Below, in pieces: positions 9,697-60,716 of a stretch of 64,000 nucleotides of DNA. A program made the position numbers and the translations under genes. Each line of letters starts with the position of its first letter. Positions within the stretch are counted from its first letter, which is position 1. The stretch is from Rhizobium jaguaris (GTDB lineage Bacteria > Pseudomonadota > Alphaproteobacteria > Rhizobiales > Rhizobiaceae), in contig NZ_CP032696.1 of NCBI RefSeq assembly GCF_003627755.1, positions 434,001 to 498,000 of the forward strand, given 5' to 3'. The notes under the pieces were generated by a model. The model had not been told where the DNA came from. It searched no databases and worked only from the letters and a program-made list of their open reading frames with translations.

Positions 9697-9758
9697 ACTA
9701 ACCTCCTGTCTGCATTGTTCTTCGTTACCAAATCTGCCGCCCACACCTTTCATCATCG

Positions 9759-41040: not shown

Positions 41041-41166
41041 AGGTGAGCGCAGGACGCTGATTGGAGCTGCAGGCGTACAGCTCCTTCCGCGAAGTTCACC
41101 GCGCGGCGCCTCCGCCGAGGTGTAGACAACTATGCACTAAACGCAAACTACACCCGCCGTCGGATT

Positions 41167-41297
41167 TGTCGGCTCTGCGACAGGGTGGCGTTCGGCTCAC
41201 AGGTCGTCCCACTCATATTTAGCCGACTGAACAAGGTGTGGAAATTATTTCTGAGCTTCCTCTGCACAGTTGGCACGACTTTTGAGTCTCCATTTCT
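41167..41297 (+). promoter_or_regulatory. nif-type promoter (copy 1): NifA site plus sigma-54-like core
   Basis: TGT-CGGCTCTGCG-ACA (41167-41182) is an exact TGT-N10-ACA NifA upstream activator site. About 98 bp downstream, TTGGCACGACTTTTGAG has GG at 41272-41273 and matches the rhizobial nifH core TGGCACGACTTTTGC except that A replaces the C of the -12 GC. Transcription would begin near 41296, upstream of the ATG at 41383. A homologous copy precedes the NRPS gene (52466-52602). The -12 change may weaken or abolish the promoter. Confidence 0.65.
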
Positions 41298-41382
41298 AAG
41301 ACGGCAGGATCTGCCGACCCGATACTCGCGTCTTGGGTCATTGCGGTGGACGACGACGACAGATCGTCAGATAGGATCGCGT

Positions 41383-41748
41383 ATGGAGACCTACGCACTA
41401 GGCGACCTCGAGCTGCAGCCGGGTCAGTTGACGGTGTGGCGACCCGACATGCCTGACCCAGTACACCGGCGGCATGATTTGCGTCGCCCGTCTTATGTTC
41501 AGGAGGAACATCTCGGCTATTTAGCGTATGGCCAGCCGGCGTGTGCCGATCCGCGTGAGACATATCTGTGGATCAGCCGATCGCATAAGGGGATTTATGT
41601 GAGCTTCCGTCACCCGCAGACGGCAACCGCGCGAACCGCGGTAGTTGGCTGTCTCAACAAAGTCAGTTCACTGGCCAACTCGATCAGCGGCGCCACGCCC
41701 GGGTCAGGCGCACGGCGGATTACTCTGGCCGGGACACATTCGTTATGA
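41383..41748 (+). CDS. PapA/condensation-domain-like N-terminal fragment, coupled to glycosyltransferase
   Basis: This 121-aa frame begins METYALGDLELQPGQLTVWR and contains DLRRPSYVQEEHLGYLAYGQ. That resembles the N terminus of PapA-type acyltransferases and related stand-alone condensation domains, which share a -L-W-P- stretch followed by PSYxQExHL. The remaining 60 residues do not look like the domain and no HHxxxDG motif is present, so it is probably a truncated relic that may still be translated. Its stop overlaps the next ATG (ATGA), so translating it would couple expression of the glycosyltransferase, which lacks its own good ribosome-binding site. AGGA precedes the ATG. Confidence 0.45.
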   Translation: METYALGDLELQPGQLTVWRPDMPDPVHRRHDLRRPSYVQEEHLGYLAYGQPACADPRETYLWISRSHKGIYVSFRHPQTATARTAVVGCLNKVSSLANSISGATPGSGARRITLAGTHSL

Positions 41749-43136
41749 TTGCCGCTAGAAGGAAATGCGCAATATTTATTTCATTCGATGGTGTGTCGGT
41801 GTCAGGCATCACCGTCGAAGCGGTAAAGATCGCAAAAAAACTCACGGAAAAAGGGTTCAAATGCTACCTGGATCTGGGATACGACATCAACATAAGTAAA
41901 GGAAATTTCGGAAGACCGTACAAGTTTGAGGCCGCCCTTTATCACAAGTGTTTTGAATTGGCACGTGTTGCGGATCTTTCTAATATACCTAACTATACCA
42001 TCGAATTTCTTGATAAGATAAATAAGGTACTAATTAGCGAGACACTTGCCGTATCACGCGATGCAAGGGCGGCGATACTTACGTCAGTGGACGAGGTTGC
42101 CGCGGAAGTAGCGCTTAAAATTGAGGCCCTATGGAAATATCTGAATGTCAGCAAAGTTATCGTCGAAAACGGAACGCTGCCTGAGAATATCATATATTCC
42201 CGCGCGCTACTCCTCGCGATTGAACAGTACGGACGCGCCAAGAATTTGGGGAATTTTGTCATCTGGCGCGACCATGACCTGATGTGGAGCAGCGAAAAAA
42301 AATCGATGAAATACGGCGCTCCGCCGTATCCGTATGCGACTAAACCGGTCAAATCGCAATACATCACCTATGTTACGCTGAATGAAAAACTACGAGATGA
42401 ACTGGAAGAATGGTCCAACTTTGAGGTTGAGGTTCAAGTCGGGAAAAATGCATACAATTTTTCCGAGTGCTCTCGCCGTAATATCAGGCCATTATTGGGT
42501 ATTCGCAAGAGCGACATTCTGATTGCTAGAACAACGCGTCTGATACCTCAAAAGCGAATCGACAGAGATATCGACCTGGTAAATCGTTTGAATCTCCTTC
42601 TCCGCGAACGCGGTGAACGTAAACGCATATTTCTGGTGATTGCTGGAGATAAAAATGAAAACTATTCTCATTATATTGAGCTTGAGCGGTTGGCAAAAAC
42701 GCTGGATATCGTGCAGCACATTAAATTTACCGGACCCCTGCATCACGACTTTATGCCTACCGAAGGCAACGAGTTCACGATAGAGGACTTGTATTACTCT
42801 TGTGATCTAGTGTCATTTCTCACCTCCTATGACTACGACAGCTACGGCAACCCTATCGGGGAGGCAATTAGCCAAAAACGCTGCTATATCACCACGAGCT
42901 ATGAATATTATCACGAGGTGTATGGTCGACATGGATTTGTGGCCCCTATGTTGGAAATCTCAGGCACTCGTGATGAGTTATCCGACCAACGATTTGTCGA
43001 TGAGGTATTCCTCTTTCTCACAAACAATCAGTTGATGAGGGCCGTTGCGGAGAAGAATTTTCAGCAGGGAAAACGCGTCCTTTCCAACGACCTCTTTGAG
43101 GTATTGAATTTGAAAGGCTGTGAAGAAAATGCGTGA
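41745..43136 (+). CDS. GT4-like glycosyltransferase
   Basis: The 463-aa GT-B-fold enzyme has an N-terminal half opening with CAIFISFDGVSVSGITVEAV. The C-terminal nucleotide-sugar half has LIARTTRLIPQKRIDRDIDL, FLVIAGDKNENYSHYIELE and the acidic E-x7-E-like segment DYDSYGNPIGEAISQKR. It should transfer a sugar from a nucleotide donor; acceptor unknown. Base composition is strikingly AT-rich with ATA/AAT codons absent from the flanking genes, a sign of transfer. It overlaps the next gene by 8 nt. Confidence 0.8.
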   Translation: MIAARRKCAIFISFDGVSVSGITVEAVKIAKKLTEKGFKCYLDLGYDINISKGNFGRPYKFEAALYHKCFELARVADLSNIPNYTIEFLDKINKVLISETLAVSRDARAAILTSVDEVAAEVALKIEALWKYLNVSKVIVENGTLPENIIYSRALLLAIEQYGRAKNLGNFVIWRDHDLMWSSEKKSMKYGAPPYPYATKPVKSQYITYVTLNEKLRDELEEWSNFEVEVQVGKNAYNFSECSRRNIRPLLGIRKSDILIARTTRLIPQKRIDRDIDLVNRLNLLLRERGERKRIFLVIAGDKNENYSHYIELERLAKTLDIVQHIKFTGPLHHDFMPTEGNEFTIEDLYYSCDLVSFLTSYDYDSYGNPIGEAISQKRCYITTSYEYYHEVYGRHGFVAPMLEISGTRDELSDQRFVDEVFLFLTNNQLMRAVAEKNFQQGKRVLSNDLFEVLNLKGCEENA

Positions 43137-44406
43137 CACCACCTTCGTATCAGTTGTGCTTCCAGTCTTTAACGAGGGCACGCGTATTACCGATGTACTT
43201 GAGTCAATTTATCGCCAGAGTACGCTGAGAGAATTGATTACACGCGGCAGTTATGAGCTCATAATCGTCGACAACAATTCGACGGACAATTCCGTAGCGC
43301 AAATTAATGCCCTGGCAGCGAAATATTCTTCGGTAGACACACATATTATCGAGGAAAAAGTGCAGGGCGTTTCATCCGCCAGAAAGCATGGCATGGATTA
43401 CGCGTCTTTTAGAGCCAAGGCTCGAGATAGCCGACTCGGGACCAGAAATAAGCACTACATCGTTTCTGCTGACGCTGACTGTACGGTCGATGCGTATTGG
43501 CTTCATCACCTTATCGACAAAATGGTGAAAGAAGATGGGGACTTGGGAACTTGTAAATACTATTACAACAAAAAAAGTTTTCGTCAGCGTCCCAATCTCT
43601 TCAGAGAAATTGAGAAGACATTACGCTGCCGGGATTTCTCTTTTAAGTTATTTGGTGGATTTCCGGATGGTAAAGGTTTTGCCGTAGAGCGGGAATTCTA
43701 TGAAAAAGTAGGCGGTATTGAAATCTTCTATCAGTTGAACAAGGGTCGCTTCGTTGAACATTTATCGGACGACTGGGATTTCGGTATCAAGGTAGTTGCC
43801 TGCGGCGGCAAGCCCGTTTACGCAGAAGAGTCTTGCGTTCAGGTCAACAGCCGACGCATCGATATTATTCTTGATGAGGTGATCACCGGGGCCGCCTATG
43901 GCAAGGACGGTATCATTTTCATGAAGGATGTGCGACCCGACCGCGGTACCGGGAAGAAAATCTTGCGTGACACGACAGAAGAGCAATCTAAACAAGCGTG
44001 GTTTTACTCAATAAAAGATTACGTTCCTAAAAATATTATATTGCCTGCGTTATTGAACCCAAAAATCTTGATAGACAATGTCGAAGTTAGGAGCTTCTTT
44101 ACCGAACTGGTGGCCGACAGACTGTATAAACGAATTGATGCAATCAGACACGAGATGCGCCTTATCGATTTCAAGGCTATTCATTCCTATAAAACTCCAT
44201 CCTATCGGCTCTATTTTGAGTTTCGCGATGAGATATTTGCCGCGTTGCGCCGTGCAGTCGGCGATGACGTTGGTTTTCCTCCTGCATTACCTGCTTGCTT
44301 TGATAATGTCAGTTCGGCCGATTTTAACCGCTTCGTTTGGTACTTCTGTGAAGATCGCGAATCTGGCGAAGCACATAATTACTTTGCCAACGGAGGGGTA
44401 TTTTGA
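43129..44406 (+). CDS. GT2-family glycosyltransferase
   Basis: This 425-aa GT-A enzyme starts MRDTTFVSVVLPVFNEGTRI and has LIIVDNNSTDNSVAQI (nucleotide site) and the metal-binding DxD in YIVSADADCTVDA. Family-2 inverting transferases use UDP- or GDP-sugars. A 200-residue C-terminal extension of unknown role follows the catalytic domain. It overlaps the GT4 gene and abuts the radical SAM gene, forming one tight AT-rich operon. An upstream GTG at 43120 is an alternative start. Confidence 0.82.
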   Translation: MRDTTFVSVVLPVFNEGTRITDVLESIYRQSTLRELITRGSYELIIVDNNSTDNSVAQINALAAKYSSVDTHIIEEKVQGVSSARKHGMDYASFRAKARDSRLGTRNKHYIVSADADCTVDAYWLHHLIDKMVKEDGDLGTCKYYYNKKSFRQRPNLFREIEKTLRCRDFSFKLFGGFPDGKGFAVEREFYEKVGGIEIFYQLNKGRFVEHLSDDWDFGIKVVACGGKPVYAEESCVQVNSRRIDIILDEVITGAAYGKDGIIFMKDVRPDRGTGKKILRDTTEEQSKQAWFYSIKDYVPKNIILPALLNPKILIDNVEVRSFFTELVADRLYKRIDAIRHEMRLIDFKAIHSYKTPSYRLYFEFRDEIFAALRRAVGDDVGFPPALPACFDNVSSADFNRFVWYFCEDRESGEAHNYFANGGVF

Positions 44407-45843
44407 ATGACCAATGCGATGGCGTCTTTACGCGACCTCGATCCCCAGTATCCAGTGCCTTTAGTCCACGAATTTCTTTCCAGGCCAGAAAATAAGGCAT
44501 ATCTGGACTATGCCTACAAAGACCCGTTCGGCTGTCATGTTTTCCCGGGAGATATAGAAGATTACCCACTGTCGTCTTTCTTTGCAGACATGAATAGCGA
44601 AATTGCCAGAGCGCCGCAAATTCATCTGTGGGCATACATTCCCTGCTGCCGCTACCGCTGCCACTTTTGCCAGTTTCCGACGATCACTCTCAATCCCCAC
44701 ACAGCGTCTTCACAGGCAGTCATGAAAGATCTGGTTAATCTGAATATCAAAGAAGCCAGACTGTGGCTGGCGAAGGTGCCGAGCCTTGCTGCTGTGGAAG
44801 TTGGAGAATTCAATATTTTTGGTGGCACTCCCTCGCTGCTGCCTGAATCCGAGCTGCGTAGATTAGTTGCGTTTTACAAAGACCATTTCAATTTCTTTGC
44901 TGCGACGATGCGGTTTGAAGGCGAACCTGGAACGCTGACAAAATCATATCTTTCGCTACTACAGGAGCTTGGTTTCACCAAGGTGAGCTTTGGAGCTCAA
45001 TCTTTTGACGACCGATTTATTTCTGGTTCTGGTCGTATGCATTCCGCGAAAGAGTGCATTGAAACGATATACGACGCGCGGGAAGTCGGTATTGACTGGG
45101 TTAGTGTTGACCTCATCTACGGCATGCTGGGACAGAGCGTGGACGACGTGGGATATGACATGGAGACAACCCGCCAACTGGATCTTTCCCATGTCGTCTG
45201 CACCAAGCTGCATCTGGAAGAATTCATGAAAATCCGTACCGGCGTATCTGGGGAGCGTCGAAGTGTATGGCAGAAAGCAGGGCTAGGTAATTGCAACAAC
45301 ATGAGCTTTCCTGGTCTGGGAAAGCAATATCAAATGCGCGAGCTGATCGAAAAAAATTTGAAGGGCGCCTATCGTGAACATCCTACCATGTATTTTTATC
45401 GACACGATCATCAGCCGGAAAAATGGAAAGGCCTCATTACCGATCTAGACAAGCAGTACCCTGAAATAGCTGTCGGCCTCGGGGGTAGTTCAAAATGCAC
45501 GAAAGCCGAAGCGATCAATATCACTAGTTACAATGCCTACAAGGGCGCATTGCATGAAGATCGCCTCCCGATCCAGGAATGCCGCGGCATGTCACCGGTT
45601 CACCGGGAGGTTACTGCATTTAAAATGGCGCTCTCGACGCTCAGTCCGGTAGATAATGGCGTATTCAAGCAACGTTTCGAGGGAAAGAGCTTTTTTGACA
45701 ACGAAATGATCAATTGCACTTTGAGCGGGCTAGTGGGAAAGTCGCTGGTTGTCATTGAAAGCGATGTCGTAACTCTAACCCCCTATGGCGTCACGCTAGT
45801 CGAAGCGATCATCAATACGCAGTTTGCGCCAGCATACAGATAG
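44407..45843 (+). CDS. Radical SAM protein, HemN/HemW-like
   Basis: The 478-aa enzyme has the [4Fe-4S]-SAM motif CRYRCHFC in IPCCRYRCHFCQFP, the C-x3-C-x2-C of the HemN/HemW superfamily. GGTPSLLPESELRR and FEGEPGTLTK (SAM/Glu contact) are further family hallmarks, as is VSFGAQSFDDRF. The C-terminal part ends in a winged-helix-like segment (SGLVGKSLVVIESDVVTLTP). Coproporphyrinogen oxidation is unlikely beside two glycosyltransferases; HemN-like enzymes in biosynthetic clusters often methylate or rearrange a metabolite. It starts directly after the GT2 stop with GGAGG upstream. Confidence 0.85.
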   Translation: MTNAMASLRDLDPQYPVPLVHEFLSRPENKAYLDYAYKDPFGCHVFPGDIEDYPLSSFFADMNSEIARAPQIHLWAYIPCCRYRCHFCQFPTITLNPHTASSQAVMKDLVNLNIKEARLWLAKVPSLAAVEVGEFNIFGGTPSLLPESELRRLVAFYKDHFNFFAATMRFEGEPGTLTKSYLSLLQELGFTKVSFGAQSFDDRFISGSGRMHSAKECIETIYDAREVGIDWVSVDLIYGMLGQSVDDVGYDMETTRQLDLSHVVCTKLHLEEFMKIRTGVSGERRSVWQKAGLGNCNNMSFPGLGKQYQMRELIEKNLKGAYREHPTMYFYRHDHQPEKWKGLITDLDKQYPEIAVGLGGSSKCTKAEAINITSYNAYKGALHEDRLPIQECRGMSPVHREVTAFKMALSTLSPVDNGVFKQRFEGKSFFDNEMINCTLSGLVGKSLVVIESDVVTLTPYGVTLVEAIINTQFAPAYR

Positions 45844-46027
45844 TATTCTTCATGGCGACGGTATGAGATAATTAGCGCTCTGTCCAGCGAGCGGTCTAAC
45901 CTCGCAAAATTCCCTAACGTAACGCCTTGAGATCTACAAACAGGATAACGTTCCCTTTAGCGTATCCATCCGAGCACGCCGAGCAGGACCGCGGGATTTA
46001 GAGCGTCGCGCGTGGTAACATCGGTTC
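45844..46027. other. Junction between unit 1 and IS66 debris
   Basis: No gene. GTAACGCCTTGAGATC at 45919 may be a diverged IS66 terminal repeat for the minus-strand IS66 remnant that follows. Confidence 0.3.
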
Positions 46028-46261
46028 ATGGAGATCGATGAGGACAAAATCGACGACGCAGTTTTGGCGTTGCTATGGTTGGCGCTGCATAACGAGCGTT
46101 GCGCCTGGAAGGGTTTTGATTGGGTAACGACGGATCGGCTTCACAAGAAGGGCATGATCGGCGACCCAGTCAACAAGTCGAAGTCATTGGCGTTGACCGA
46201 TGAAGGCCTGGAGCGCTCGGAAGCGTCGTTCCGGAAGCTGTTTACGCGGCCGTCGCAATAG
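46028..46261 (+). CDS. DUF6429-family protein (IS66 passenger)
   Basis: This 77-aa protein, MEIDEDKIDDAVLALLWLAL followed by WKGFDWVTTDRLHKKGMI, matches the short family regularly found beside IS66 tnpC in rhizobia. It is convergent with an IS66 tnpC remnant and overlaps its end. Function unknown. Confidence 0.7.
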   Translation: MEIDEDKIDDAVLALLWLALHNERCAWKGFDWVTTDRLHKKGMIGDPVNKSKSLALTDEGLERSEASFRKLFTRPSQ

Positions 46262-46449
46262 CGGTCTTTTGTGCCTTCCATTCCCAGGGCAGTAGTTCGT
46301 GCAGGTGAGAGACGGGAAGATCGGCGATACGGGCGAGCACGTCGGCGAGACATGCCTTCGGGTCGACGTCGTTGAGACGGCAGGTGGTGATGAAGGTCAG
46401 CATGATGGCGGCACGATCGGCTCCACGCTTGGGACCGGCGAAGGTTCAA
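46242..46449 (-). pseudogene. IS66 tnpC C-terminal fragment (element B remnant)
   Basis: The minus strand reads GPKRGADRAAIMLTFITTCR, LNDVDPKACLADVLARIAD, and LPVSHLHELLPWEWKAQK before a TAA stop. This is the IS66 transposase C terminus; the rest of the gene is missing. It is a different IS66 from the one inserted next to it. Confidence 0.85.
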
Positions 46450-46458
46450 TTCCGGCGC

Positions 46459-46478
46459 CTATGGAAATATTTCCATAG
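46459..46478. repeat. 20-bp perfect palindrome at an IS66/IS66 junction
   Basis: CTATGGAAATATTTCCATAG is fully self-complementary. It sits between oppositely oriented IS66 tnpC fragments. It could be a recombination scar or a protein-binding site. Confidence 0.8.
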
Positions 46479-46479
46479 A

Positions 46480-46632
46480 AGGCGCAACTCGCTGTTTGCT
46501 GGCAGTTGCGGGGGAGCAGAAAGCTGGGCGGTCCTCGCGTCTCTTCTTCAAACAGCCCCGCTCAACGGACTTGATCCCTATAAATGGCTGGTTGACGTCC
46601 TTGAAAAGATCGTCTTCAACGACGTGAAAAGC
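46480..46632 (+). pseudogene. IS66 tnpC fragment, 5' side of a nested insertion (element C)
   Basis: The plus strand reads RRNSLFAGSCGGAESWAVLA, SLLQTAPLNGLDPYKWL and VDVLEKIVFNDVKS. It is interrupted by element D and continues in frame at 51459, so the two halves together form a normal IS66 TnpC C terminus. Confidence 0.85.
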
Positions 46633-46709
46633 GTAAGCGGACAGGCCATCCCACGTAGCATCGAGACGCGAAATCGCTCATTTTCAGCATGAATCATGCT
46701 GGGAATCCT

Positions 46710-47093
46710 ATGAGTGAAGATATGAATCATGGCCGTACGTTCGAAATTCTGACGGCGGAGCCGGTGCGAAAGCGGCGAAAGCCGAAGTTGCGTTCTGATG
46801 AGGACAAGGCTTTGATTTTGGAGCAAGCTCTCGCTCCTGGCGCTAATGTCTCTGCGGTCGCGCGTGCCCATGGGATGGACCCGTCGCAGCTTTTTGGATG
46901 GCGTCGAGCAGCGCTTGCGTCTGGTTCGGTTCAGCGCCTGAAAGCAACCGAAAACGATAAGGCCTTTACTCGTTTCGAGGCGGTGCGGACGGACACTGTC
47001 GAGATCCAGGTGGGCGACACGACACTTCGCGTCAGCGCTTCGATCGATCCGGTGCTGCTGAGCGGCATCGTCAGGGCGGTACGGCAAGCATGA
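46710..47093 (+). CDS. tnpA: IS66 TnpA (element D)
   Basis: The 127-aa HTH protein contains LRSDEDKALILEQALAPGAN and VARAHGMDPSQLFGWRRAAL. The ATG at 46710 has GGGA upstream. It overlaps tnpB by 4 nt. Confidence 0.9.
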   Translation: MSEDMNHGRTFEILTAEPVRKRRKPKLRSDEDKALILEQALAPGANVSAVARAHGMDPSQLFGWRRAALASGSVQRLKATENDKAFTRFEAVRTDTVEIQVGDTTLRVSASIDPVLLSGIVRAVRQA

Positions 47094-47434
47094 TCGCTTC
47101 GGGTGTCGTGGTCTATGTGTCGTGCCAACCGGTCGACTTCCGCAAAGGCGCGGCCTCGCTGATGGCCCTGGTGCGCGATGGCGGCCTCGACCCCTTTAAC
47201 GGTGCTCTTTATGTATTCCGCTCGAAACGTGCAGACCGGATCCGCATTGTTTGGTGGGACGGCAGTGGGGTCTGCCTTTACGCCAAAATAATCGAAGAAA
47301 ATGGCTTCTGCTGGCCTGTCCCGTCTGCTGCCCGCGTCCGTCTCGATCATGCGCAATTAATGGCACTTCTAGCCGGAATGGATTGGAAAAAGATCCGCCC
47401 CGCCAAGGTGCGCCGGCCACTTTCGATCGGCTGA
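47090..47434 (+). CDS. tnpB: IS66 TnpB (element D)
   Basis: This 114-aa IS66 ORF2 protein has CQPVDFRKGAASLMALV, FRSKRADRIRIVWWDGSGVC and WPVPSAARVRLDH. Intact. Confidence 0.92.
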   Translation: MIASGVVVYVSCQPVDFRKGAASLMALVRDGGLDPFNGALYVFRSKRADRIRIVWWDGSGVCLYAKIIEENGFCWPVPSAARVRLDHAQLMALLAGMDWKKIRPAKVRRPLSIG

Positions 47435-47509
47435 TGACGATGTGCGGCAAGTTGAATCATGTTGCTGTAAGTGTTGGGAAATCGGCTGATTCTATGCTCT
47501 ATTACGCGC

Positions 47510-48427
47510 ATGGTTTTACCCGGTCCAGACCTTCCTGACGACGTCGATGCGCTGAAAGCGATGATCATCGCTTTGAACGCAGAGAAGGCTGCGACTGACG
47601 CCGAAATTGCCCGAATGAAGGCTGTCCAACAAAAAGCCGACGAGCGGATCACCACTTTGACGGCGATCTTGAAGGTTTTGCAGCGGGCCCAAAACGGGAC
47701 GCGCTCCGAGCGACTGCGGCTGGCGATCAACGACGAGCAGATAGACTTCGCGTTTGAGGAGGTCGAGACTGGCCTTGCGGCGATTGATAGCGAACTTGGC
47801 CAAGTGGGCAAAGAGCGGCCAAAAAGGGAGGCGCGGCCTCGCAAAGGTTTTGCCGCCCATCTCGAACGCATCGAGGAAGTGATTGAGCCGGAGATTCCCG
47901 ACGACTGCCAAGGCTTGGAAAAGGTTCTGATCGGCGAGGACCGATCCGAGCGGCTTGATGTCATACCGCCGAAGTTCAGGGTCATCGTCACACGCCGCCC
48001 GAAATATGCGTTCCGCGAACGTGATGGCGTGCTTCAGGCTTTGGCCCCCGCGCATATCATCGAAGGTGGGCTGCCGAGCGAACGGTTGCTGGCCTATATC
48101 GCCGTGTCGAAATATGCCGACGGTCTTCCGCTCTACCGCCAGGAGGCGATCTATCTGCGCGACAGCGTGGCTCTAAGCCGCTCCTTGATGGCCCAATGGA
48201 TGGGGCATCTGGGCTTCGAGCTGCGGATCTTGGCGGATTACATCTTGGAACGCATCAAAGCCGGAGAGAGGGTTTTTGCGGACGAGACCACCTTACCGAC
48301 GCTGGTCCCCGGCTCTGGTAGAACGATGAAGGCGTGGTTATGGGCCTACGCTTGCGATGACCGACCGTTTGGCGGGTCTGGCCCGCCGATGGTTGCCTAT
48401 CGCTTCGAAGACAGCAGGGGTGGCAAG
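47510..48427 (+). pseudogene. tnpC: IS66 tnpC (element D), 5' part, split by IS21
   Basis: This is the N-terminal 306 codons of TnpC: coiled coil, LNAEKAATDAEIARMKAVQQ, then the first catalytic Asp in VFADETTLPTLVPGSGRT, ending at FEDSRGGKC where the IS21 insertion begins. Beyond 48427 the frame reads IS21 DNA and soon stops. The 3' part resumes at 50765. Confidence 0.92.
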
Positions 48428-48478
48428 TGTCAATGCCGAGTGAAATTTCCCCAGAAGTGCCGAAGTAAAATTCCCCAA

Positions 48479-50625
<2,147 letters not shown>

Positions 50626-50764
50626 TCCCCTCTCGACCATCGAGAGCAGTATCAGTGATGACGCGCCGCCGGTCTTCCGGGGCGCGCCCCGGAAGACCGG
50701 CGGCAACGCTAAACTGGGGAAGATTCAAACGGCACTTCTGGGGAGTATTCATCCGGTATCAACA

Positions 50765-51450
50765 GCAAGTGTGTCGCGCGTCATCTCGCCGGGTTCAGCG
50801 GCATCCTGCAAGTGGATGGGTACTCGGCTTATACCAGCATGCTCAAGGAGCGCGCCAAGTCCGGCAGCAATGAAACGATCAAGCTGGCCGGATGCTGGGC
50901 ACATTTACGCCGAAAATTCTACGAGCTGCATGTCGGCGGCATTAATGACGCTGCAACAGCGTCGATCACAGCGATGACGGAACTTTGGAAGGTCGAGGAC
51001 GAGATCCGCGGCAGTGATGCCGAAACCCGTGCCACACGTCGTCAGGAGACGTCCGCTGGCATCGTCGCCGATCTCTTCCACTTGTGGGAGAAGGAACTCT
51101 CCAAAGTCTCCGGAAAGTCCAAGACTGCGGAGGCGATACGCTACGCCCTGACACGCCGGGAGGCGCTGGAGCACTTCTTGACGGACGGTCGCGTCGAAAT
51201 CGACTCCAACATAGTCGAGCGTGCCATCCGACCCCAAACAATTACGAGGAAGAATAGTCTCTTTGCCGGTAGCGAGGGCGGCGGAGAGACATGGGCCACG
51301 ATCGCCACACTTCTACAGACGGCAAAAATGAACAACGTCGATCCGCTTGCCTGGCTATCTCAAACGCTCACCCGCATCGCAAATCGCTGGCCAGCCGCTG
51401 ATATTGAGCTGCTCATGCCATGGAACTTCGAACCAGACGCCGTCGGCTAA
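50765..51450 (+). pseudogene. tnpC: IS66 tnpC (element D), 3' part
   Basis: It continues the interrupted tnpC: GILQVDGYSAYTSMLKERAK (second Asp), VEIDSNIVERAIRPQTITRK (Glu), and a final LTRIANRWPAADIELLMPWN. Precise removal of the IS21 and one GCAAG would restore the full protein. Confidence 0.92.
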
Positions 51451-51458
51451 CCGCTTAC

Positions 51459-51547
51459 TGAAAAGCCACGAGCTTGACCAGCTTTTGGCCTGGAATTGGA
51501 AAAAGCAACGAGAGGCGGAAGGGAAATCCTTGGCGAGAGCAGCGTGA
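51459..51547 (+). pseudogene. IS66 tnpC fragment, 3' side of the nested insertion (element C)
   Basis: The frame reads VKSHELDQLLAWNWKKQREA, EGKSLARAA and stops. It is the in-frame continuation of 46480-46632 once element D and one TGAAAAGC are removed. Confidence 0.85.
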
Positions 51548-52152
51548 AACAACCCCGGCGCCTACCGATAATGTCCCTTGACGAGCTGGAGGGCTGGTTC
51601 GACACGGCCAAGCCAGCACCGCATTGCAGGGGCGTCTCCATGTTGAACGGCTTTCTGACGGGGCTGGCCGCAGGGCCGGTCTTCCTGCTGCCCAATGACT
51701 GGATGTGGCATGTTGTCGGCGAACACGAGCAGCGAGCATTCATCGGCAACAAAATGCAGGCTGTTATTGATACGATCGTTGATCACTATAACCTGATAGC
51801 ACACCAGCTCACCAGAGCTGGTGCTTATGCGCCGATCTACATGCGTACGGATGGCGAGGAGGTTCTCGCTGATGATTGGGCGGACGGGTTCTTTGGCGCG
51901 ATGAACCTCAGCCTTGAGCAATGGGCACCGCTGTTTGCGGATAAGAAGGCCGGCGAGCCGCTCCTTACCATCTTGACGCAAACCACCAATCCGCAACTGG
52001 CTGAGATCATTGCGACGGCTTACCCTAAGCCACTGGAACCCCAACTACTGTTTAAAGAAGCCTGGCGAGCGTTACCCAAAGCCGTCGAGGCCATTTACGC
52101 CTATAGCAAGCCCCTGCGCTTTAACCCCGCCGCTCCTGCAAACCAGGCTTAG
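51544..52152 (+). CDS. UPF0149/YecA-family protein (IS66 passenger)
   Basis: The 202-aa protein has the YecA/UPF0149 core: LDELEGWFDTAKPAPHCRGV, SMLNGFLTGLAAGP and ADDWADGFFGAM. It begins with a GTG overlapping the stop of IS66 element C tnpC (GTGA), so it was a co-transcribed passenger of that IS66. Function in the element is unknown. An ATG at 51571 is an alternative start. Confidence 0.8.
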   Translation: MKQPRRLPIMSLDELEGWFDTAKPAPHCRGVSMLNGFLTGLAAGPVFLLPNDWMWHVVGEHEQRAFIGNKMQAVIDTIVDHYNLIAHQLTRAGAYAPIYMRTDGEEVLADDWADGFFGAMNLSLEQWAPLFADKKAGEPLLTILTQTTNPQLAEIIATAYPKPLEPQLLFKEAWRALPKAVEAIYAYSKPLRFNPAAPANQA

Positions 52153-52154
52153 TA

Positions 52155-52191
52155 AGTTATCAGCATGAGTATCATGCCTATGCTGATAACT
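52155..52191. repeat. 12-bp inverted repeat after the YecA gene
   Basis: AGTTATCAGCAT (52155-52166) and ATGCTGATAACT (52180-52191) are perfect inverted arms around a 13-bp loop. Located 3 bp after the stop codon, it may terminate transcription; no T-tract follows. It could also be a recombination site. Confidence 0.7.
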
Positions 52192-52465
52192 GCAGAAGAT
52201 CCCACGAGCCTGCAAACGCGACAAGGCCGTCAATAAATATAGCCGTGGGGCGCTCGTGCCGGATACGCTTATTCCGTCATACCGGTAACCAACGACACGG
52301 CGCGACAGAGCCCCGCGTTTCGTCTCCGCCGTTTTTGAATGCAATGGAGAATGCAGATTGTGACCGTAACGCCTATCGGCACACCGGTGCCACAACCTGC
52401 ACCCGCCGTCGTTCGTTGATGGCCCTGCCCGCTCCTCCAAGAAAACACAAGTGCGCCGCCTCCAT
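52192..52465. other. Non-coding region upstream of the NRPS promoter
   Basis: No gene seen. The stretch CACCCGCCGTCG near 52410 is shared with the region upstream of unit 1 (near 41152), so homology between the two upstream regions may start here. Confidence 0.4.
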
Positions 52466-52602
52466 TGTCGGGTTCGTCAATTTCGCGACACGCCCCTGTC
52501 CGATGTAATCCTATCTCACTTTCATTAAACAATTGAAACACAACGATGTTTTTTGCCTGAGCGCCTCGGCATAACTGGCATGACTTTTGAAGCTTTCTCG
52601 AT
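52466..52602 (+). promoter_or_regulatory. nif-type promoter (copy 2) of the NRPS operon
   Basis: CTGGCATGACTTTTGAA has GG at 52577-52578 and, as in copy 1, GA instead of GC at -12. A TGTCGGG...CGCGACA element (52466-52490) lies at the same distance upstream as the NifA site of copy 1, but its TGT and ACA are 19 bp apart rather than 10. Similarity to copy 1 continues through TGAGC-N-CCTC-N-GCA before the core and TCTC-N-ATTTC after it. Start of transcription would be near 52601, 63 nt before the NRPS ATG. Confidence 0.6.
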
Positions 52603-52663
52603 TTCGACAGGACAGGAATTGCCAGCGGTGAGCAACTCACCGCCGCGACCTACGAGGAAACTT

Positions 52664-55600
52664 ATGCTTAACGAAGGCCGGACTGCGAAGTCCGAATTTG
52701 TCGGAAGTCAGCTCATCGATTTAGTCGCAGCTATAGATGAAATTGCCGTGTCGTTCCCGGACAGGATAGCGATTAAGCACGGTGGGGAAGAACTGACATA
52801 TGGTGACCTGCGCGTGCAGTCGGATCGAATTGCGAGCACGCTCCGGGAGCGCTGCGCGCAGGTCATTGGCTATTGCGGTGAACGAAACCTCCATTGGGCA
52901 ACCACAGTCGTCGCAATTCTGAAAAGCGGCTCAACATATTTGCCGCTCGATCCATCCTTGCCGGCCTCCCGCATTTCTTCGATGATCGAGCAGAGTGAAT
53001 GCACCCTGGTCATCGGGCCGGAAAGACCTGACGCGCTTGGTCTGTTTCAGGAAAACGGCAACTGCAGCCGAGAATTCTTAACGGTTCAGACAGCGCTACT
53101 CGGCGGCCGTGCCTCTGCTGCGATGCCAACTTCGGTTGAAAGCCGCCTCGCCTACATTCTTTTTACGTCCGGCTCGACGGGCAAACCCAAGGGAGTAATG
53201 GTCAAGCGTGCAGGCTTAAACAATCATTTAACGGCCAAGATAGTTGCACTCGAGCTCAGCGATAAGGACTGTGTTGCACAAACTGCTTCACACGGCTTTG
53301 ACATCTCACTGTGGCAGCTTTTGGCAGGGTTATGTGTCGGCAGTCGCGTCGCGATCATAGATGATGCGACCGTGAGATCTCCGTTGGCCCTTCTTGAGGC
53401 ACTGCAGGCACATCGCGTAACAATTGTCCAATTCGTCCCATCGGTGCTCGCGGTATTCGTCGAATATCTGCAGACCCTCTCAGCCGACGAGCGGCTTCTT
53501 GGCGTCTTACGCATGGTGTCCACGGTCGGCGAGCCGCTGACGCCCGCATTGGCGCGCGGTTGGCTGACACTCTTTCCTCAAATACCAATTCTCAATCACT
53601 ACGGCCCGACCGAATGTGCGGATGGAGTTACGCATCATTTGGTATCTCTCCCGCCCAGCACAGCCGACGCATATGTCCCCATCGGTAAGCCGATTGCCAA
53701 CCTTAGGGTGTATGTCGCCAACGGGTTGCGTCTGTGCAAGACGGGGGAAGTTGGGGAAATTTGTGTTAGTGGAGCCGGTGTCGCTGATGGTTACGTCAAC
53801 GATAAGGGGCGTACCATGGAAGCGTTTTCGGCAAATCCCTTCTCGGAGCACCCATCGTATCGGCAGCTCTACAAGACCGGCGATCTCGGACGCCTCAGGG
53901 CAGACGGCCTGCTGGAGTGCCTTGGTCGACGAGATCGTCAGATCAAGATCCGCGGGCACCGGATCGAACTTGGAGAGATCGAGTCTCGGCTCTGCGCCCA
54001 TCCTTTGGTAAATGCGGCCGCCGCTATTGCGCCGGTCCCAGAGAGCTTGAAGCTCACGGCTCGGGATATAAACAACAGCGACCGACAAACGGAACCACGA
54101 CGAATCGTGGCCTATGTGTCGGCTTCTGCCGAACTTTCGGAGCGTGAGCTCAGGAGCTTTGTTGCCGAAGCGCTTCCTGCCTGCATGCTGCCGGAACGCA
54201 TCATTCGCATCGACCGGATTCCTGTTACCCGAAACGGGAAAGTGGATCTCGCGTCCTTGCCTGATCCGACGACCATTCGGCCGGAGCTGCCGAATCCCTT
54301 CGAGGAACCAAAGACGGAACTCGAAAGCACCCTACGGCGTATTTGGTCCAGCGTTCTTCGGATCAAGGATATCGGCGTCAGCGACCAATTTATGGATCTC
54401 GGAGGCGACTCGCTCCGAGCGATGCTTATATTGGCTCAGGTTCAGAGGCAGCTCGGGACAAAGGTGGACTTCAGGATCGTCCTGAATGGGACCGTCAGGT
54501 CGCTTGCGGCATCGATATCGCGCCAATCCGGCACGACGCAGACGGTGCTACCAGCTTGCGGGAAGCTCAAACGATCACCCCTGACGCGAGTGCAAGAACA
54601 CCTTTGGTTCCTCTGGCAGCTCGATCCGACCGCAAAAAACTACATGATTCAGGGCGGTGTGCGTATCCGAGGTGCCATCGATCTGATCGCATTCAATAAA
54701 GCCTGGAGCGACGTTGTTCAGACGCATGACGCGCTTCGCGCACGTTTCATCGACGAAGAGTGGCCGGTTCAGATTTTTGATGATCCGCCGAGCGCCGATC
54801 TGGAGTTGATAGACGCCACCCACCTAAGTGAACAGCAGGCCGAGGAACTTGTGTCGGAACTGCGACGGACGGAGCTCAACAACCCTTTTGATCTCAGCCA
54901 GGGCCATTTGTTTCGAGCGCGGATGATCCGTCTTGGCGCGGACGATCACCTCGTGCTGATAACTGCGCACGAAATCATCATAGATGCATGGTCAATTTCG
55001 GTCCTGCTCAGAGATTTGCAAACGAGATACTCCCAAGCCGCCGCCTTCTCTCCGACGGATCGCCCATCACTGTCGACCTATGCGCTCTGGGAAAGTGCAA
55101 ATGTCACGCCGGAGTCGTTGAAGGGCCAACGCCGCTATTGGCGTCGGCAAATAGGCGACAATCCTCCTGTACTTTCGATCGGGAACGATCGAGTGCGGCC
55201 GAAAGTGGGCTCCAACCGCGGGAACTCGCATGCGGTTCTTCTTGGCGGCGAGCTGTCTGACCACGTGCGAGACTTTGCGCGCCGGCAAAGGTGCACGACT
55301 TCGGCTGTCCTGTTGGCATGTTTCAAGCTTCTATTGCGCATGTATAGCGGCCAAGACGACGTTGTCGTTGGCATGCCGCACGTCGTGCGTAGCCAACCAG
55401 GCACCGAGGAAATCGTGGGCTTTTTCCTCAACATGCTGCCAATCCGAACGAAGATCGACATCAATCAGTCTTTTGCGGCTCACGTAGCTCACGTGCAGGA
55501 CCTCATAAGCGATGCCATCGCGAACTCGGACTATCCATTCAGCTGGATGGTCAGAGATACCCGGTTCCTGCGCGAACATGGTCGATCGCCGATCTTCCAA

Positions 55601-58600
55601 GTCATGTTCAACATGTACTCCGAGCCTCCGGAGCCATCGGGCAAGCGCGATCTGGAACTGACATTTCGCGAATACGACACGGGTTACGTTAAGTTCGACC
55701 TTACCCTTTATGCACAAGACGAAGGCGATGAAATTGCAATGCAACTGGCTTATGCGCAAGACACATTCTCAAGCGATGTGATCGCTCGCATGGCCGATAA
55801 TCTTCGCCATCTCATTGCTGCCTGTGTCGAGAGGTCTGCCGAGTCGATTGTCGCCCTGAGCGGCCCCAGCCCGTCGGAAATCGCCACCCTAAACTCGCTC
55901 AAGGGCGACGAGCAGTCATTCGAGAAGGAGCCTTCGCTTGTGGAGGCGTTCAATCAGGTAAGCGCTTCAAACAGCGATCGGGTGGCGTACTTCGGCGAGT
56001 TCGGAGCAATCACGTTTGGCCAACTGCACCACCGAATGGCTACAATCCAGTCGCTTCTGCGAACTTGCGGGGTGGGAGCGGGTGACATCGTTGCCATGCT
56101 GGTCGACCGGTCGCCGGATGTAGCGGCAACAACCTTGGCAATCAGGAATTTGCAGGCAACGATCGTGCCGATCTCGCCTGATTACCCAAGGGAACGGGTC
56201 GGCCACATCGTAAGACATAGCGGCGCGAGGCTCCTTATTCATGCGGGCACGGACGCGGAGGTGGATTTCGGCGTGCCGTGCGTTGATCTGGCTGTCCTCC
56301 AAGCTGCATCCGGCCCTGGCCGGGTCTGGCACCGAACTGTCGAGTTGCCCAATCAGGACGCAGCGAGCTTAATTTACACTTCATCCTCGACTGGGAAGGC
56401 GAAGGGCGTTCTCGTACCCGAATCTGCGATACTCAACCGGCTGAACTGGATGTGGCGATGCTTCCCTTTCGACGGCTTCGACGTGATGGTGGCACAGAAG
56501 TCAGCGACACTCATTGCCGCGCTATGGGAGTATTTTGGAGGGCTGCTGAAGGGAGTGCCCACGCTGATCCTGACGCAGGAGCAGGTGCTCGACCCCGACC
56601 TCTTGTTGAGGGCATTGGCACAGCATCGCGTCACGCGGTTGTTTGCCGCTCCGCCCATTCTGTCCGGTTTAATCGCTTCTCAAAAGCGACATCCGGAAAC
56701 AACCAACTTGCGCCTGGTCACAAGCAGCGCCGAACTGATGCCGCCATCGCTTCCGATTCGCTGGCGAGAGTGCTTTCCAGATGTGCCGCTGTGGAATTTT
56801 TACGGCACGACCGAGTGCGCGTCCAATGCAGCAGTGTACCGAACATCAGACGCCGACGACGGCTCTTCAGCTGTGCCGGTCGGGCGCCCGATCGACAATG
56901 TAAAAGTCTACGTTCTTGACGCACACTTGAAGCAGGTTCCCGTCGGAGTCGCAGGTGAACTCTGCGTTGCCGGACGCTGCGTGAGCACCGGGTATTGGAA
57001 GGATCCAGAGCGAACAAAACACCGTTTCGTTTCAAATCCGTACGACGAAAGTCAATACAGCATCCTTTATCGCAGCGGTGATATCGCCCGCGTCTCCGCC
57101 AAAGGCCTCCTGGAGATTTGCGGTCGAGCAGATAACCAAATTCAGCTTCGGGGTTTCCGAATTGAGCTGGAGGAACTTGAAGCCGCGCTCGTCGCTCATT
57201 CCGGCGTTGCGCAGGCCGCCGCATTTGTCCAGGGCGAGGACGATGATCGGCGACTGGTTGCCCTTGTGGTCCCAGCTCTCGACGGCCTGACCTCTGGAGC
57301 CATCGTGAACCACCTGCGGCAGACACTGCCCTCCTACATGATTCCGTCGGATGTTCGGATCGTGCACCGTATGCCGCTCACCGCGAGCGGGAAGATAGAT
57401 CGGGCTCGTCTCTCTTCCGTCTCGTCCCGCAAGATGCGAAGGACCAAATCCGCTAAGCCGCGAACGGAGAGGCAGCGACTCCTTGCCGATATCTGGCACG
57501 AGCTGTTGGGCGCCAAATCTGTCGGCATCGATGATAGCTTCTTTGATATCGGCGGAAATTCGCTCCTCAGCGTGCGGTGCGTTACACTGGCGCGTAAAGC
57601 GGGACTGAACTTGACCGTCAGCCAACTGCACCGGACACCAACAATCCGCGAGCTGGCAACGCACCAGTCCGCGGCCACGACTTATGCCGAGCCCGTTTCC
57701 GATGAACCGCTGCCAATGACCCCTGCAGTCTCACATTGGAATAGTCGTGTCGGAATCGGCGATCACTACAACATCGGCGATCTCTTCTTCATGCCCGCCG
57801 GCCTCTTGAATGTCTCCACTCTTGAACATGCGCTTGCGCATATCACCGGCCGGGAGGAAGGACTGAGGCTCCGAATCGTGCAAACAGAGAACGGCCTCTC
57901 TCAGGCGATCGGATCGATACCCCGAGCCCTCGTAGAGGAAATAGACCTTGTCGGTGTAGACACATCGGAACAACGCGCGGTCATTGAGCGCTCCTGTGCG
58001 GAGCGTCAGCGCTCGTTTCGATTTGACGGTCGCACACCCCTTATCAGGGTCTCAGCTTTCCGGACGTCGGAAAGCGGCGATTACTATTTGCTCGTTCTGC
58101 TGCATCACTTCGTAGCAGACGGGGTCGGATACAGATTGTTCCTGAGTGCACTGGACGCAGCTTACAAGTCGTTTGCTGCCGGCCAAACCGGAGCGGTTAC
58201 AGAGAACACGACCCTGACCCAATGGCTGAAGCGTTTGGACAAATACGCGAATGGCGAAGCCGAAACGGAGCTGGAGCACTGGGAAGGCATTCGATATGAG
58301 CGATTTGACATGGGTGTGAGCGACGCCGGGTCGTGTGCGGCGGGCTTTTCAACCGAAACGGCCAAACGCCTCCATCATGCAGGCTCGGAGGAGCATATCG
58401 ATGAAGACTTCTGCACGCCACTCTGGAAAGACCAGGCGACATATCATCTAAGGATCAATGAGGAGACAACGGGGAAACTTCTCAAGGTTGCGGCGAGGTC
58501 TGCACATTGCGAGGATTTTGATCTCGTGCTGGCGGCTATTTCGGGGGCATTTGGCCGCGCTTTTGGAAATTATTCCCTCTGGATTGACAGCCTCACCTCG

Positions 58601-59122
58601 ACGAGGGGACATCTATTCGAGGATATCGACCCGTCTCAAATCATTGGTTACGTCGGTGAACTGGTGCCACTTCCGTTATTCCTTACCGGAATGGAGTCTC
58701 GCCTGGACCGCGCCCGCTCCATATATCGGCAACGCAGCTCACTGCCGCGCCAAGGCATAGGTTTCCGTGCTCTGAAGTTCTTGAACCAGAACCCTGCTTT
58801 GCGCGAGCGGATCGATCGTCTGCCGTTACCCCGCATCGGGCTAAACTATCGAGCTAGGCTACAACATCATTATCCCCGCCGTCTGCTATGCAAGGATCCA
58901 GATCCATTGTGGCTCGGCGAAGATATGGATCAGTCAGTTATGAACTACCTCTTCTGGTTTCGCATCGGATACCAATCGGGTGAACTACGAATCGAAACGA
59001 GATATGATCCACGGCAAGTCGGCTTCGAAACGACCCGCGATCTCTGCACAATCTTCCGCGACGAACTCCTCCAGACTGTCGATGCATTAGGAGAGCCCGC
59101 ACAACGAGCCAACTACGGATGA
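52664..59122 (+). CDS. Nonribosomal peptide synthetase, A-T-C-A-T-C
   Basis: This is a 2152-aa synthetase from the ATG at 52664 (GAGG upstream); a frame from 52553 would begin inside the promoter. A1 (about 20-540): FTSGSTGKPKG, HYGPTEC, YKTGDLGR, GKVDL. T1: LGGDSL near 579. C1 (about 635-1070): the active-site motif is HEIIIDAW, with Glu in place of the catalytic second His. A2 (about 1085-1580): TSSSTGKAKG, FYGTTEC, YRSGDIAR, GKIDR; the A4 segment TLIAALWEYF lacks the Asp that binds an alpha-amino group. T2: IGGNSL near 1628. C2 (about 1670-2130): intact HHFVADG. There is no initiating C domain and no thioesterase, so the terminal C domain probably releases the product onto a soluble amine or alcohol. 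Confidence 0.93.
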   Translation: MLNEGRTAKSEFVGSQLIDLVAAIDEIAVSFPDRIAIKHGGEELTYGDLRVQSDRIASTLRERCAQVIGYCGERNLHWATTVVAILKSGSTYLPLDPSLPASRISSMIEQSECTLVIGPERPDALGLFQENGNCSREFLTVQTALLGGRASAAMPTSVESRLAYILFTSGSTGKPKGVMVKRAGLNNHLTAKIVALELSDKDCVAQTASHGFDISLWQLLAGLCVGSRVAIIDDATVRSPLALLEALQAHRVTIVQFVPSVLAVFVEYLQTLSADERLLGVLRMVSTVGEPLTPALARGWLTLFPQIPILNHYGPTECADGVTHHLVSLPPSTADAYVPIGKPIANLRVYVANGLRLCKTGEVGEICVSGAGVADGYVNDKGRTMEAFSANPFSEHPSYRQLYKTGDLGRLRADGLLECLGRRDRQIKIRGHRIELGEIESRLCAHPLVNAAAAIAPVPESLKLTARDINNSDRQTEPRRIVAYVSASAELSERELRSFVAEALPACMLPERIIRIDRIPVTRNGKVDLASLPDPTTIRPELPNPFEEPKTELESTLRRIWSSVLRIKDIGVSDQFMDLGGDSLRAMLILAQVQRQLGTKVDFRIVLNGTVRSLAASISRQSGTTQTVLPACGKLKRSPLTRVQEHLWFLWQLDPTAKNYMIQGGVRIRGAIDLIAFNKAWSDVVQTHDALRARFIDEEWPVQIFDDPPSADLELIDATHLSEQQAEELVSELRRTELNNPFDLSQGHLFRARMIRLGADDHLVLITAHEIIIDAWSISVLLRDLQTRYSQAAAFSPTDRPSLSTYALWESANVTPESLKGQRRYWRRQIGDNPPVLSIGNDRVRPKVGSNRGNSHAVLLGGELSDHVRDFARRQRCTTSAVLLACFKLLLRMYSGQDDVVVGMPHVVRSQPGTEEIVGFFLNMLPIRTKIDINQSFAAHVAHVQDLISDAIANSDYPFSWMVRDTRFLREHGRSPIFQVMFNMYSEPPEPSGKRDLELTFREYDTGYVKFDLTLYAQDEGDEIAMQLAYAQDTFSSDVIARMADNLRHLIAACVERSAESIVALSGPSPSEIATLNSLKGDEQSFEKEPSLVEAFNQVSASNSDRVAYFGEFGAITFGQLHHRMATIQSLLRTCGVGAGDIVAMLVDRSPDVAATTLAIRNLQATIVPISPDYPRERVGHIVRHSGARLLIHAGTDAEVDFGVPCVDLAVLQAASGPGRVWHRTVELPNQDAASLIYTSSSTGKAKGVLVPESAILNRLNWMWRCFPFDGFDVMVAQKSATLIAALWEYFGGLLKGVPTLILTQEQVLDPDLLLRALAQHRVTRLFAAPPILSGLIASQKRHPETTNLRLVTSSAELMPPSLPIRWRECFPDVPLWNFYGTTECASNAAVYRTSDADDGSSAVPVGRPIDNVKVYVLDAHLKQVPVGVAGELCVAGRCVSTGYWKDPERTKHRFVSNPYDESQYSILYRSGDIARVSAKGLLEICGRADNQIQLRGFRIELEELEAALVAHSGVAQAAAFVQGEDDDRRLVALVVPALDGLTSGAIVNHLRQTLPSYMIPSDVRIVHRMPLTASGKIDRARLSSVSSRKMRRTKSAKPRTERQRLLADIWHELLGAKSVGIDDSFFDIGGNSLLSVRCVTLARKAGLNLTVSQLHRTPTIRELATHQSAATTYAEPVSDEPLPMTPAVSHWNSRVGIGDHYNIGDLFFMPAGLLNVSTLEHALAHITGREEGLRLRIVQTENGLSQAIGSIPRALVEEIDLVGVDTSEQRAVIERSCAERQRSFRFDGRTPLIRVSAFRTSESGDYYLLVLLHHFVADGVGYRLFLSALDAAYKSFAAGQTGAVTENTTLTQWLKRLDKYANGEAETELEHWEGIRYERFDMGVSDAGSCAAGFSTETAKRLHHAGSEEHIDEDFCTPLWKDQATYHLRINEETTGKLLKVAARSAHCEDFDLVLAAISGAFGRAFGNYSLWIDSLTSTRGHLFEDIDPSQIIGYVGELVPLPLFLTGMESRLDRARSIYRQRSSLPRQGIGFRALKFLNQNPALRERIDRLPLPRIGLNYRARLQHHYPRRLLCKDPDPLWLGEDMDQSVMNYLFWFRIGYQSGELRIETRYDPRQVGFETTRDLCTIFRDELLQTVDALGEPAQRANYG

Positions 59123-60525: not shown

Positions 60526-60716
60526 GGCTGAGAGTTGATGCGAACGTGGCAATGATTACGGATCCGCTTGGGATTGACCAGCCAATCCAAAAACGAGTGT
60601 CATGCTTACCCATGGCAATTTGATTTTAACGCCGAGGGCGAGATGCGCCAATCCGCCAGCGCGATTTTGGGCGAGTTCCCGAACAAGCAGGACGTGCTCG
60701 AATGAGAGGAAATCTC
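60526..60716 (+). other. Gap with a possible small reading frame
   Basis: In one register the DNA reads HAYPWQFDFNAEGEMRQSAS then AILGEFPNKQDVLE stop, protein-like in composition, but without an ATG at its start. Its TGA overlaps an ATG at 60702. It could be a remnant or a short leader peptide; not assigned. Confidence 0.25.

Follow-up and report, generated by a model that had tools for sequence, protein, structure and literature searches.

Two biosynthetic units on a symbiosis plasmid of Rhizobium jaguaris are probably under nifH-type promoters

Introduction

NifA is usually regarded as the regulator that turns on nitrogenase and a group of accessory functions. A 64,000-nucleotide stretch of the symbiosis plasmid of Rhizobium jaguaris (C3:434001-498000 of genome G000; hereafter, the window) raises the question of whether NifA also controls small-molecule biosynthesis, and if so, of how many products. 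Two putative biosynthetic units lie in the window. Unit 1 comprises the remnant of a PapA-like acyltransferase gene and the genes for a GT4-type glycosyltransferase, a GT2-type glycosyltransferase and a HemN-fold radical S-adenosylmethionine (SAM) enzyme; the last three are called the cassette below. Unit 2 comprises the genes for a nonribosomal peptide synthetase (NRPS), a MATE family exporter and a 4'-phosphopantetheinyl transferase (PPTase). A reading of the sequence alone (hereafter, the sequence-only reading) had linked both units, through a duplicated nif-type promoter, to one bacteroid regulon and one nodule metabolite. We find it likely that these are two independent units, each transcribed from its own NifA-activated, nifH-type sigma-54 promoter and switched on in bacteroids together with nitrogenase.

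The genome (8,025,568 bases, 8.03 Mb) is in four contigs. Contig C3 (550,563 bases), the symbiosis plasmid, holds nifH, nifA, rpoN and nodA. Its nifH, at C3:256460, is the only one in the genome that passes the family cut-off; nifA lies at C3:215665, and rpoN is present once on C3 and once more on C1. Seven further genes match the nifA model strongly while staying below its cut-off; these are other sigma-54 activator genes.

Results

Both units are preceded by nifH-type promoter sequences. The promoter of unit 1 (P1) has a -24/-12 core, TGGCACGACTTTTGA, at 41271-41285 of the window on the forward strand, with a predicted transcription start near 41296. An exact NifA upstream activator site of the form TGT-N10-ACA, TGTCGGCTCTGCGACA, occupies 41167-41182 on the same strand and starts 104 bases before the core. 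The promoter of unit 2 (P2), also on the forward strand, has its core, TGGCATGACTTTTGA, at 52576-52590, with a predicted start near 52601. A NifA-like site that departs from the motif at one position (CGT-N10-ACA, CGTCAATTTCGCGACA) lies at 52475-52490 and starts 101 bases before that core. The two cores share the form TGGCAYG-N4-TTGA, in which GG stands at -24 at the correct spacing from -12. Neither has GC at -12; both have GA there, and A at -12 departs from the sigma-54 consensus. The nifH promoter of the same plasmid has the same form, including the A (core TTGGCACGAGTTTTGA, with the NifA site TGTCGGACCCGCGACA 105 bases upstream), and the nifH promoters of Mesorhizobium loti and Rhizobium etli have A at -12 as well in the passages of PMC3538637 that treat them. 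Thus, A at -12 is an accepted local form of the nifH promoter, and we reject the idea that it marks a promoter defect.

P1 and P2 resemble rhizobial nifH promoters, both the plasmid's own and those in the same passages of PMC3538637, in the GG at -24, the TTTTG-A with A at -12 and the NifA site about 100 bases upstream. They differ in that they precede biosynthetic operons rather than nitrogenase genes, and in the imperfect site of P2. These observations bear out what the sequence-only reading had said of the position of the two cores, their nifH-like type and the exact NifA site of the first copy. We conclude that both promoters belong to the NifA/sigma-54 type, and it is probable that bacteroids use them.

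These promoter sequences are rare in the genome. The pattern TGGCAYGAYTTTTGM has three matches in all four contigs, every one of them on C3, while the reversed pattern, used as a control, has none. P1 and P2 are two of the three. On C3, 12 sites pair an exact NifA site, its start between -80 and -130, with a core that has one mismatch or none, against a total of two in ten Markov-1 shuffles of C3; allowing one mismatch in the NifA site gives 21 sites, against one to seven per shuffle. The motifs are short, insertion sequences lie between the units and the PapA remnant is internally deleted, all of which would suit a chance resemblance, or dead promoters in a region rich in insertion sequences where unit 1 is degenerating. 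We regard this as very improbable, given only three TGGCAYGAYTTTTGM matches in 8.03 Mb, 12 composite sites where a shuffle yields 0.2, the recurrence of the promoter at orthologues (below), and the state of the GT4, GT2, radical SAM and NRPS genes, which are open reading frames with conserved motifs.

Other nif-type promoters of C3 face genes outside the two units. The third TGGCAYGAYTTTTGM match, at C3:406457 (L004 8457), has an exact core and an exact NifA site at -92, with an MFS_3 exporter gene downstream (L004 8730-10052). Inside the window, a nif-type core on the reverse strand at 10542 (C3:444542; TGGCATGAATTTTGA), with an exact NifA site at -103, faces a subtilase-type open reading frame (8740-9909, reverse strand). 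At C3:349246 (L038 9246), a core and an exact NifA site precede a 332-residue open reading frame that by eye resembles D-Ala-D-Ala ligase. A Paraburkholderia phymatum gene of that name, Bphy_7633, has a value of -8.45 in nifA-mutant nodules in the data consulted from PMC8305402; the two were compared by name only.

The promoter of unit 2 recurs at its orthologues. Thirteen plasmid records carry an NRPS with 75-91% identity to that of the window. A search with the condensation region recovered these 13 records at an identity of at least 60%; eight records at 39-40%, here called the sister group, came next, followed by matches at about 32%. In the identity bands of the NRPS search, nine records fall at 60-80%, seven of which are shown at full length. 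In all 13, a core and a NifA site 95-107 bases from it lie within 600 bases upstream of the gene (10 exact, three with one mismatch). Other 600-base windows of the same loci pass in 55 of 4858 cases at one mismatch and in seven of 4858 when exact. Four further genomes have the NRPS promoter, two in exact form and two with one mismatch. Thus, all 17 NRPS orthologues examined outside one Bradyrhizobium-type genus have it, and the NifA site is exact in 12 and has one mismatch in five. Where P2 has its imperfect site, orthologues from other lineages have an exact TGT-N10-ACA. The genus set apart here is that of genome G562, which its named protein relatives suggest is Bradyrhizobium.

The cassette has comparable promoters in some of its hosts. 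In Sinorhizobium 8-89 (L009), it lies behind a nifH-type promoter whose core and NifA site are exact. By eye, apparently frame-broken or truncated remnants of nifH, nifD and nifK stand directly before this cassette (L009 217-3472), and the nifK-like open reading frame also includes a piece of a PapA-like gene. In Sinorhizobium 6-70 (L010), an exact core that lacks an exact NifA site stands 1.1 kb upstream of GT4. Sinorhizobium garamanticum (L050) has a core and a NifA site with one mismatch each 177 bases upstream, and the nearest such pair in genome G045 is 3.2 kb from the cassette. The Rhizobium calliandrae contig starts inside GT4, and its cassette promoter falls outside the available sequence.

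Published nodule expression data from P. phymatum STM815 show NifA dependence of the orthologous cassette genes. On its plasmid pBPHY02, Bphy_7706 encodes a radical SAM enzyme 69% identical to that of the window, and Bphy_7707 corresponds to the pair of glycosyltransferases; the two genes are the neighbors BPHY_RS38020 and RS38025 in L053. In the portion of PMC8305402 consulted, their log2 fold changes in nifA-mutant nodules are -4.07 and -4.98, respectively, and that of nifH (Bphy_7753) in the same nodules is -7.40. Bphy_7707 also stands at -3.6 in rpoN-mutant nodules in the part of PMC5979394 that lists it, where no Bphy_7706 value was seen. The change of expression in nifA and rpoN mutants that the sequence-only reading called for is thus found at an orthologue, for both genes with nifA and for the glycosyltransferase with rpoN. 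The P. phymatum locus differs from unit 1 of the window: its glycosyltransferase genes are fused, no PapA remnant was seen, and no promoter was found upstream of the cassette either by scan or by eye. NifA and RpoN dependence in P. phymatum may therefore be indirect. We infer NifA and RpoN dependence in the R. jaguaris strain itself.

Several observations weigh against NifA control as a general property of these units. The NifA site of P2 itself has a mismatch, and the 17 NRPS promoters are related to one another, representing about six promoter lineages. Among 30 Bradyrhizobium-type NRPS loci sampled from 64 places, an adjacent core with an exact NifA site occurs in only four; in three others no better than a two-mismatch core accompanies the exact site, and in one the site lies at -1140. 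None of the four sister-group NRPS loci fetched has a nif-type core within 1.5 kb. Within 1.3 kb of the four beta-rhizobial cassettes, a scan found no core with one mismatch or fewer. Of eight cassette loci from non-rhizobial bacteria, one (L056) passes when one mismatch is tolerated in core and site.

A different sigma-54 activator, such as NtrC or DctD, might serve these promoters, the NifA-like sites being incidental. The inexact site of the second copy and the seven further activator genes in the genome are in keeping with this. The spacing of the NifA site, 95-107 bases, is however conserved at all 17 NRPS orthologues examined beyond the Bradyrhizobium-type genus, and the cassette orthologue responds to loss of nifA in the data cited above (PMC8305402). 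We consider another activator improbable. Taken together, the match to the plasmid's own nifH promoter, the recurrence at orthologues and the nodule data available for P. phymatum give good support to nif-type regulation of both units in bacteroids, as proposed by the sequence-only reading.

Duplication of the promoter is not demonstrated. The two upstream regions do align, as had been claimed: over 190 bases, P1 against P2 gives z = 7.6, relative to 200 random 190-base segments of C3 aligned with P1 (mean 0.25, standard deviation 1.04, maximum 5.27). With core and NifA site deleted, the score is 5.3. This ranks second of the 36 pairs formed by nine nif-type promoters of C3, below another pair at 6.1, and a P1-type and a P2-type promoter taken from other strains (L010 and L060) score 6.5. 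Orthologous promoter pairs score higher (P1-L010, 9.3; P2-L057, 19.4; P2-L063, 11.5). Outside the motifs, the similarity of P1 and P2 is thus at the upper end of the range of other nif-type promoters, yet within it, and a shared origin is neither shown nor excluded.

The two units also occur apart. No plasmid record belongs both to the 13 with a close NRPS and to the nine with the radical SAM gene. Furthermore, 10 of 10 NRPS-positive Bradyrhizobium-type genomes tested are without the radical SAM gene. Both units are held by five of the six cassette genomes of the family tested (G000, G394, G395, G396 and G045). Genome G230 has a cassette with a 54%-identical radical SAM enzyme and no NRPS; the only NRPS that S. 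garamanticum has beside its cassette, on the same plasmid, is of the sister group.

A single pathway, in which the glycosyltransferases and the radical SAM enzyme act on the NRPS product as tailoring enzymes and one promoter reached both units by duplication, could draw on the neighboring position of the units on one plasmid, on the second rank of the motif-deleted P1-P2 pair and on the five of six genomes that hold both. The lack of overlap between the two sets of plasmid records and the 10 genomes without the radical SAM gene do not support one metabolite from both units. The NRPS operon also has an exporter and a PPTase of its own, and each promoter is far closer to its own orthologues than to the other. 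We thus think a single pathway unlikely, if less so than either a different activator or chance. Since the units occur apart, they are best seen as co-regulated neighbors.

Unit 1 encodes a glycosyltransferase and radical SAM cassette. The two glycosyltransferases, the radical SAM protein, the NRPS, the MATE exporter and the PPTase were all called correctly by the sequence-only reading, and the PapA fragment that it reported is real. This remnant (41383-41748, forward strand) joins residues 1-52 to residues 394-453 of a 454-residue homologue, P0250, at 80-81% identity. Residues 53-393 are gone, the active-site region included; no intact condensation-type domain is left, and the remnant has no Pfam match. 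PapA-like versions in L009 and L010 have decayed differently. An intact PapA-like gene probably lies near the cassette in Rhizobium mesoamericanum, since P0250 and the radical SAM protein P0002, both from that species, are each listed with 25,119 bases as the longest contig.

On the forward strand, the GT4-type glycosyltransferase gene (41745-43136) follows; its product is barely above the cut-off of PF13692, and elsewhere the gene neighbors GT2 and the radical SAM gene. GT2 (43120-44406) matches PF00535 at 4.5e-21. The radical SAM gene (44407-45843, forward strand) encodes a protein 99% identical to one of R. calliandrae CCGE524. Its CX3CX2C motif (C81, C85 and C88) is invariant across 30 aligned relatives, and residue 90 is not cysteine in the alignment. 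The predicted model (pLDDT 89.3) follows the HemN fold (1olt) along the chain, with TM scores of 0.72 and 0.79, and residues 71-268 match the class C enzyme NocN (9p2u) in sequence at E 5.5e-19. HemN coproporphyrinogen oxidase has the cysteine motif CX3CX2CXC. Despite its fold, the window protein is 18% identical to HemN, lacks that motif and scores 74.3 bits against an NCBIfam hemN cut-off of 324.95; identity as HemN is rejected. Between the two units, gene calls place IS66 and IS21 transposase genes at 47471-50706.

The cassette recurs in other bacteria. GT4, GT2 and the radical SAM gene stand together in Sinorhizobium, Kosakonia, Arsenophonus and Pseudochrobactrum, and the cassette is also found on plasmids of S. 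garamanticum, Duffyella, Paraburkholderia and Cupriavidus. In P. phymatum, P. phenoliruptrix and P. sabiae, the radical SAM gene is about 14 kb from nodA. PMC5748707 and PMC9554594, searched for gene names or product terms, contained nothing on the cassette.

Unit 2 encodes a two-module NRPS with conserved substrate codes. The NRPS gene (52664-59122, forward strand) has a start that agrees with the annotated starts of its orthologues and encodes the domain order A-T-C-A-T-C (adenylation, carrier, condensation), with two stretches each of PF00501, PF00550 and PF00668. On the same strand, it is followed by the MATE exporter gene (59119-60525; PF01554 and TIGR00797, above cut-off) and the PPTase gene (60702-61427; PF17837 and PF01648). 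The NRPS resembles described systems in NCBIfam, such as solanimycin SolG and AusA, in its condensation, adenylation and carrier domains. It differs from them in its domain order with a terminal condensation domain; among the 25 best matches, it falls far short of every curated system cut-off, and the general adenylation-domain model alone passes.

Adenylation codes were read by aligning motifs to the gramicidin synthetase positions rather than by a predictor, and they are given without named substrates. The set consisted of the window NRPS and those 57 of the 120 listed proteins whose length is 2100-2230 residues; proteins outside this range were excluded (n = 58). The code of module 1 is DIWQSVHDGK in 57 and DIWQAVHDGK in one. 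Module 2 reads VAWATSFSNK in 53, IAWATSFSNK in four, including the window, and VAWGTSFSNK in one. In the sister group (36-37% identity, n = 4), module 1 reads DIWQSVHDGK in three and DVWQSVHDGK in one, and module 2 reads VAWAASFSNK in three and VAWAVSFSNK in one. HHxxxDG is the canonical condensation-domain motif. The first condensation domain instead has HExxxDA in all 62 aligned proteins, while the last has HHxxxDG in the window, in 57 of the 58 close relatives and in three of the four sister-group members. Since the codes are nearly invariant and HExxxDA stands in every aligned protein, all of these enzymes are likely to make one product or close variants of it. The aspartate that contacts the alpha-amine is absent from module 2, pointing to a beta-amino acid or some other acid as its substrate.

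The NRPS of unit 2 is associated with nodulating bacteria. Among the best 120 of 665 protein relatives, all named ones with at least 63% identity belong to Rhizobium, Sinorhizobium/Ensifer, Mesorhizobium or Bradyrhizobium, and the remainder have 29-35% identity. Twelve of the 13 NRPS plasmid records carry nifH; the thirteenth is from Mesorhizobium huakuii 583, a species with nifH listed on a different record. Plasmids of Sinorhizobium fredii GR64 and NXT3 also carry the NRPS. In the Bradyrhizobium-type genus, 63 of 265 genomes have the NRPS. NodA (E < 1e-60; 139 genomes, while 160 pass the family cut-off) is present in all 63 NRPS-positive genomes and in 76 of the other 202 (Fisher p 3.5e-22, uncorrected for relatedness). 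Of the eight sister-group records, four were fetched; all four have NRPS and MATE genes, and a PPTase is annotated in three.

Further observations concern these genes and their surroundings. On a plasmid of Rhizobium sp. T136 (L084 1-10510), an NRPS operon of the sister group is found downstream of nifN-nifX-fdxB and is separated from them by an IS630 element. The NRPS gene of Mesorhizobium loti 582 (L068 6001-12427) is frame-broken, with 11 stops in the frame read. Another replicon of the R. jaguaris genome holds an NRPS open reading frame of 11,090 residues (G000:C4:80956-95445). C3 has three NodA genes (C3:97357, C3:149744 and C3:196339); Rhizobium tropici CIAT 899 likewise has them in three places. 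In the window, a reverse-strand gene at 6179-8005 encodes a GlmS/NodM-like protein with glutamine amidotransferase and SIS domains.

Discussion

On the reading that we favor, two independent units under NifA, low oxygen and active NifA in bacteroids would switch on both together with nitrogenase. Each chemical step that follows is proposed from the predicted functions of the genes. Unit 1 would probably yield a small glycoside, which the radical SAM enzyme may modify, most likely by SAM-dependent carbon methylation or a related step. In unit 2, the PPTase would arm the carriers of the NRPS, which would assemble a small two-unit product: module 1 would load an alpha-amino acid, and module 2 a substrate without the usual alpha-amine contact, such as a beta-amino acid or an acid of another kind. 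Release of the product would fall to the terminal condensation domain, and export to the MATE protein.

The nodule metabolite had been called undescribed. This stands for the products, in that the consulted parts of the open-licence PMC literature describe none for unit 1 or unit 2. It does not stand for the genes, as NifA-dependent transcripts have been published for the cassette orthologue and for blr2108 of Bradyrhizobium diazoefficiens. The latter, a probable peptide synthetase, has a value of -4.6 in nifA-mutant nodules in Table 3 of PMC4926349, which gives no nifH value in the part consulted, and it is also listed in PMC6515984 and PMC8632152. It is likened to the NRPS of unit 2 by description only, as a probable peptide synthetase with NifA-dependent nodule expression.

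We tentatively propose, at somewhat less than even confidence, that the NRPS, MATE exporter and PPTase make one conserved, exported symbiosis metabolite in nodulating Rhizobium, Sinorhizobium, Mesorhizobium and Bradyrhizobium, and that in several of these it is switched by NifA along with nitrogenase. With its unusual HExxxDA condensation domain and a second module that would take an acid other than an alpha-amino acid, the system might supply a nodule-stage signal or protectant comparable in reach to the Nod factor while acting later. Because every genome with the NRPS in the genus tested also carries nodA, and because the predicted substrates differ little across rhizobia, deleting the gene in one tractable strain could uncover a metabolite common to the symbiosis as a whole and show how it affects the plant. 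Here, NifA appears to direct operons devoted to making small molecules in the nodule.

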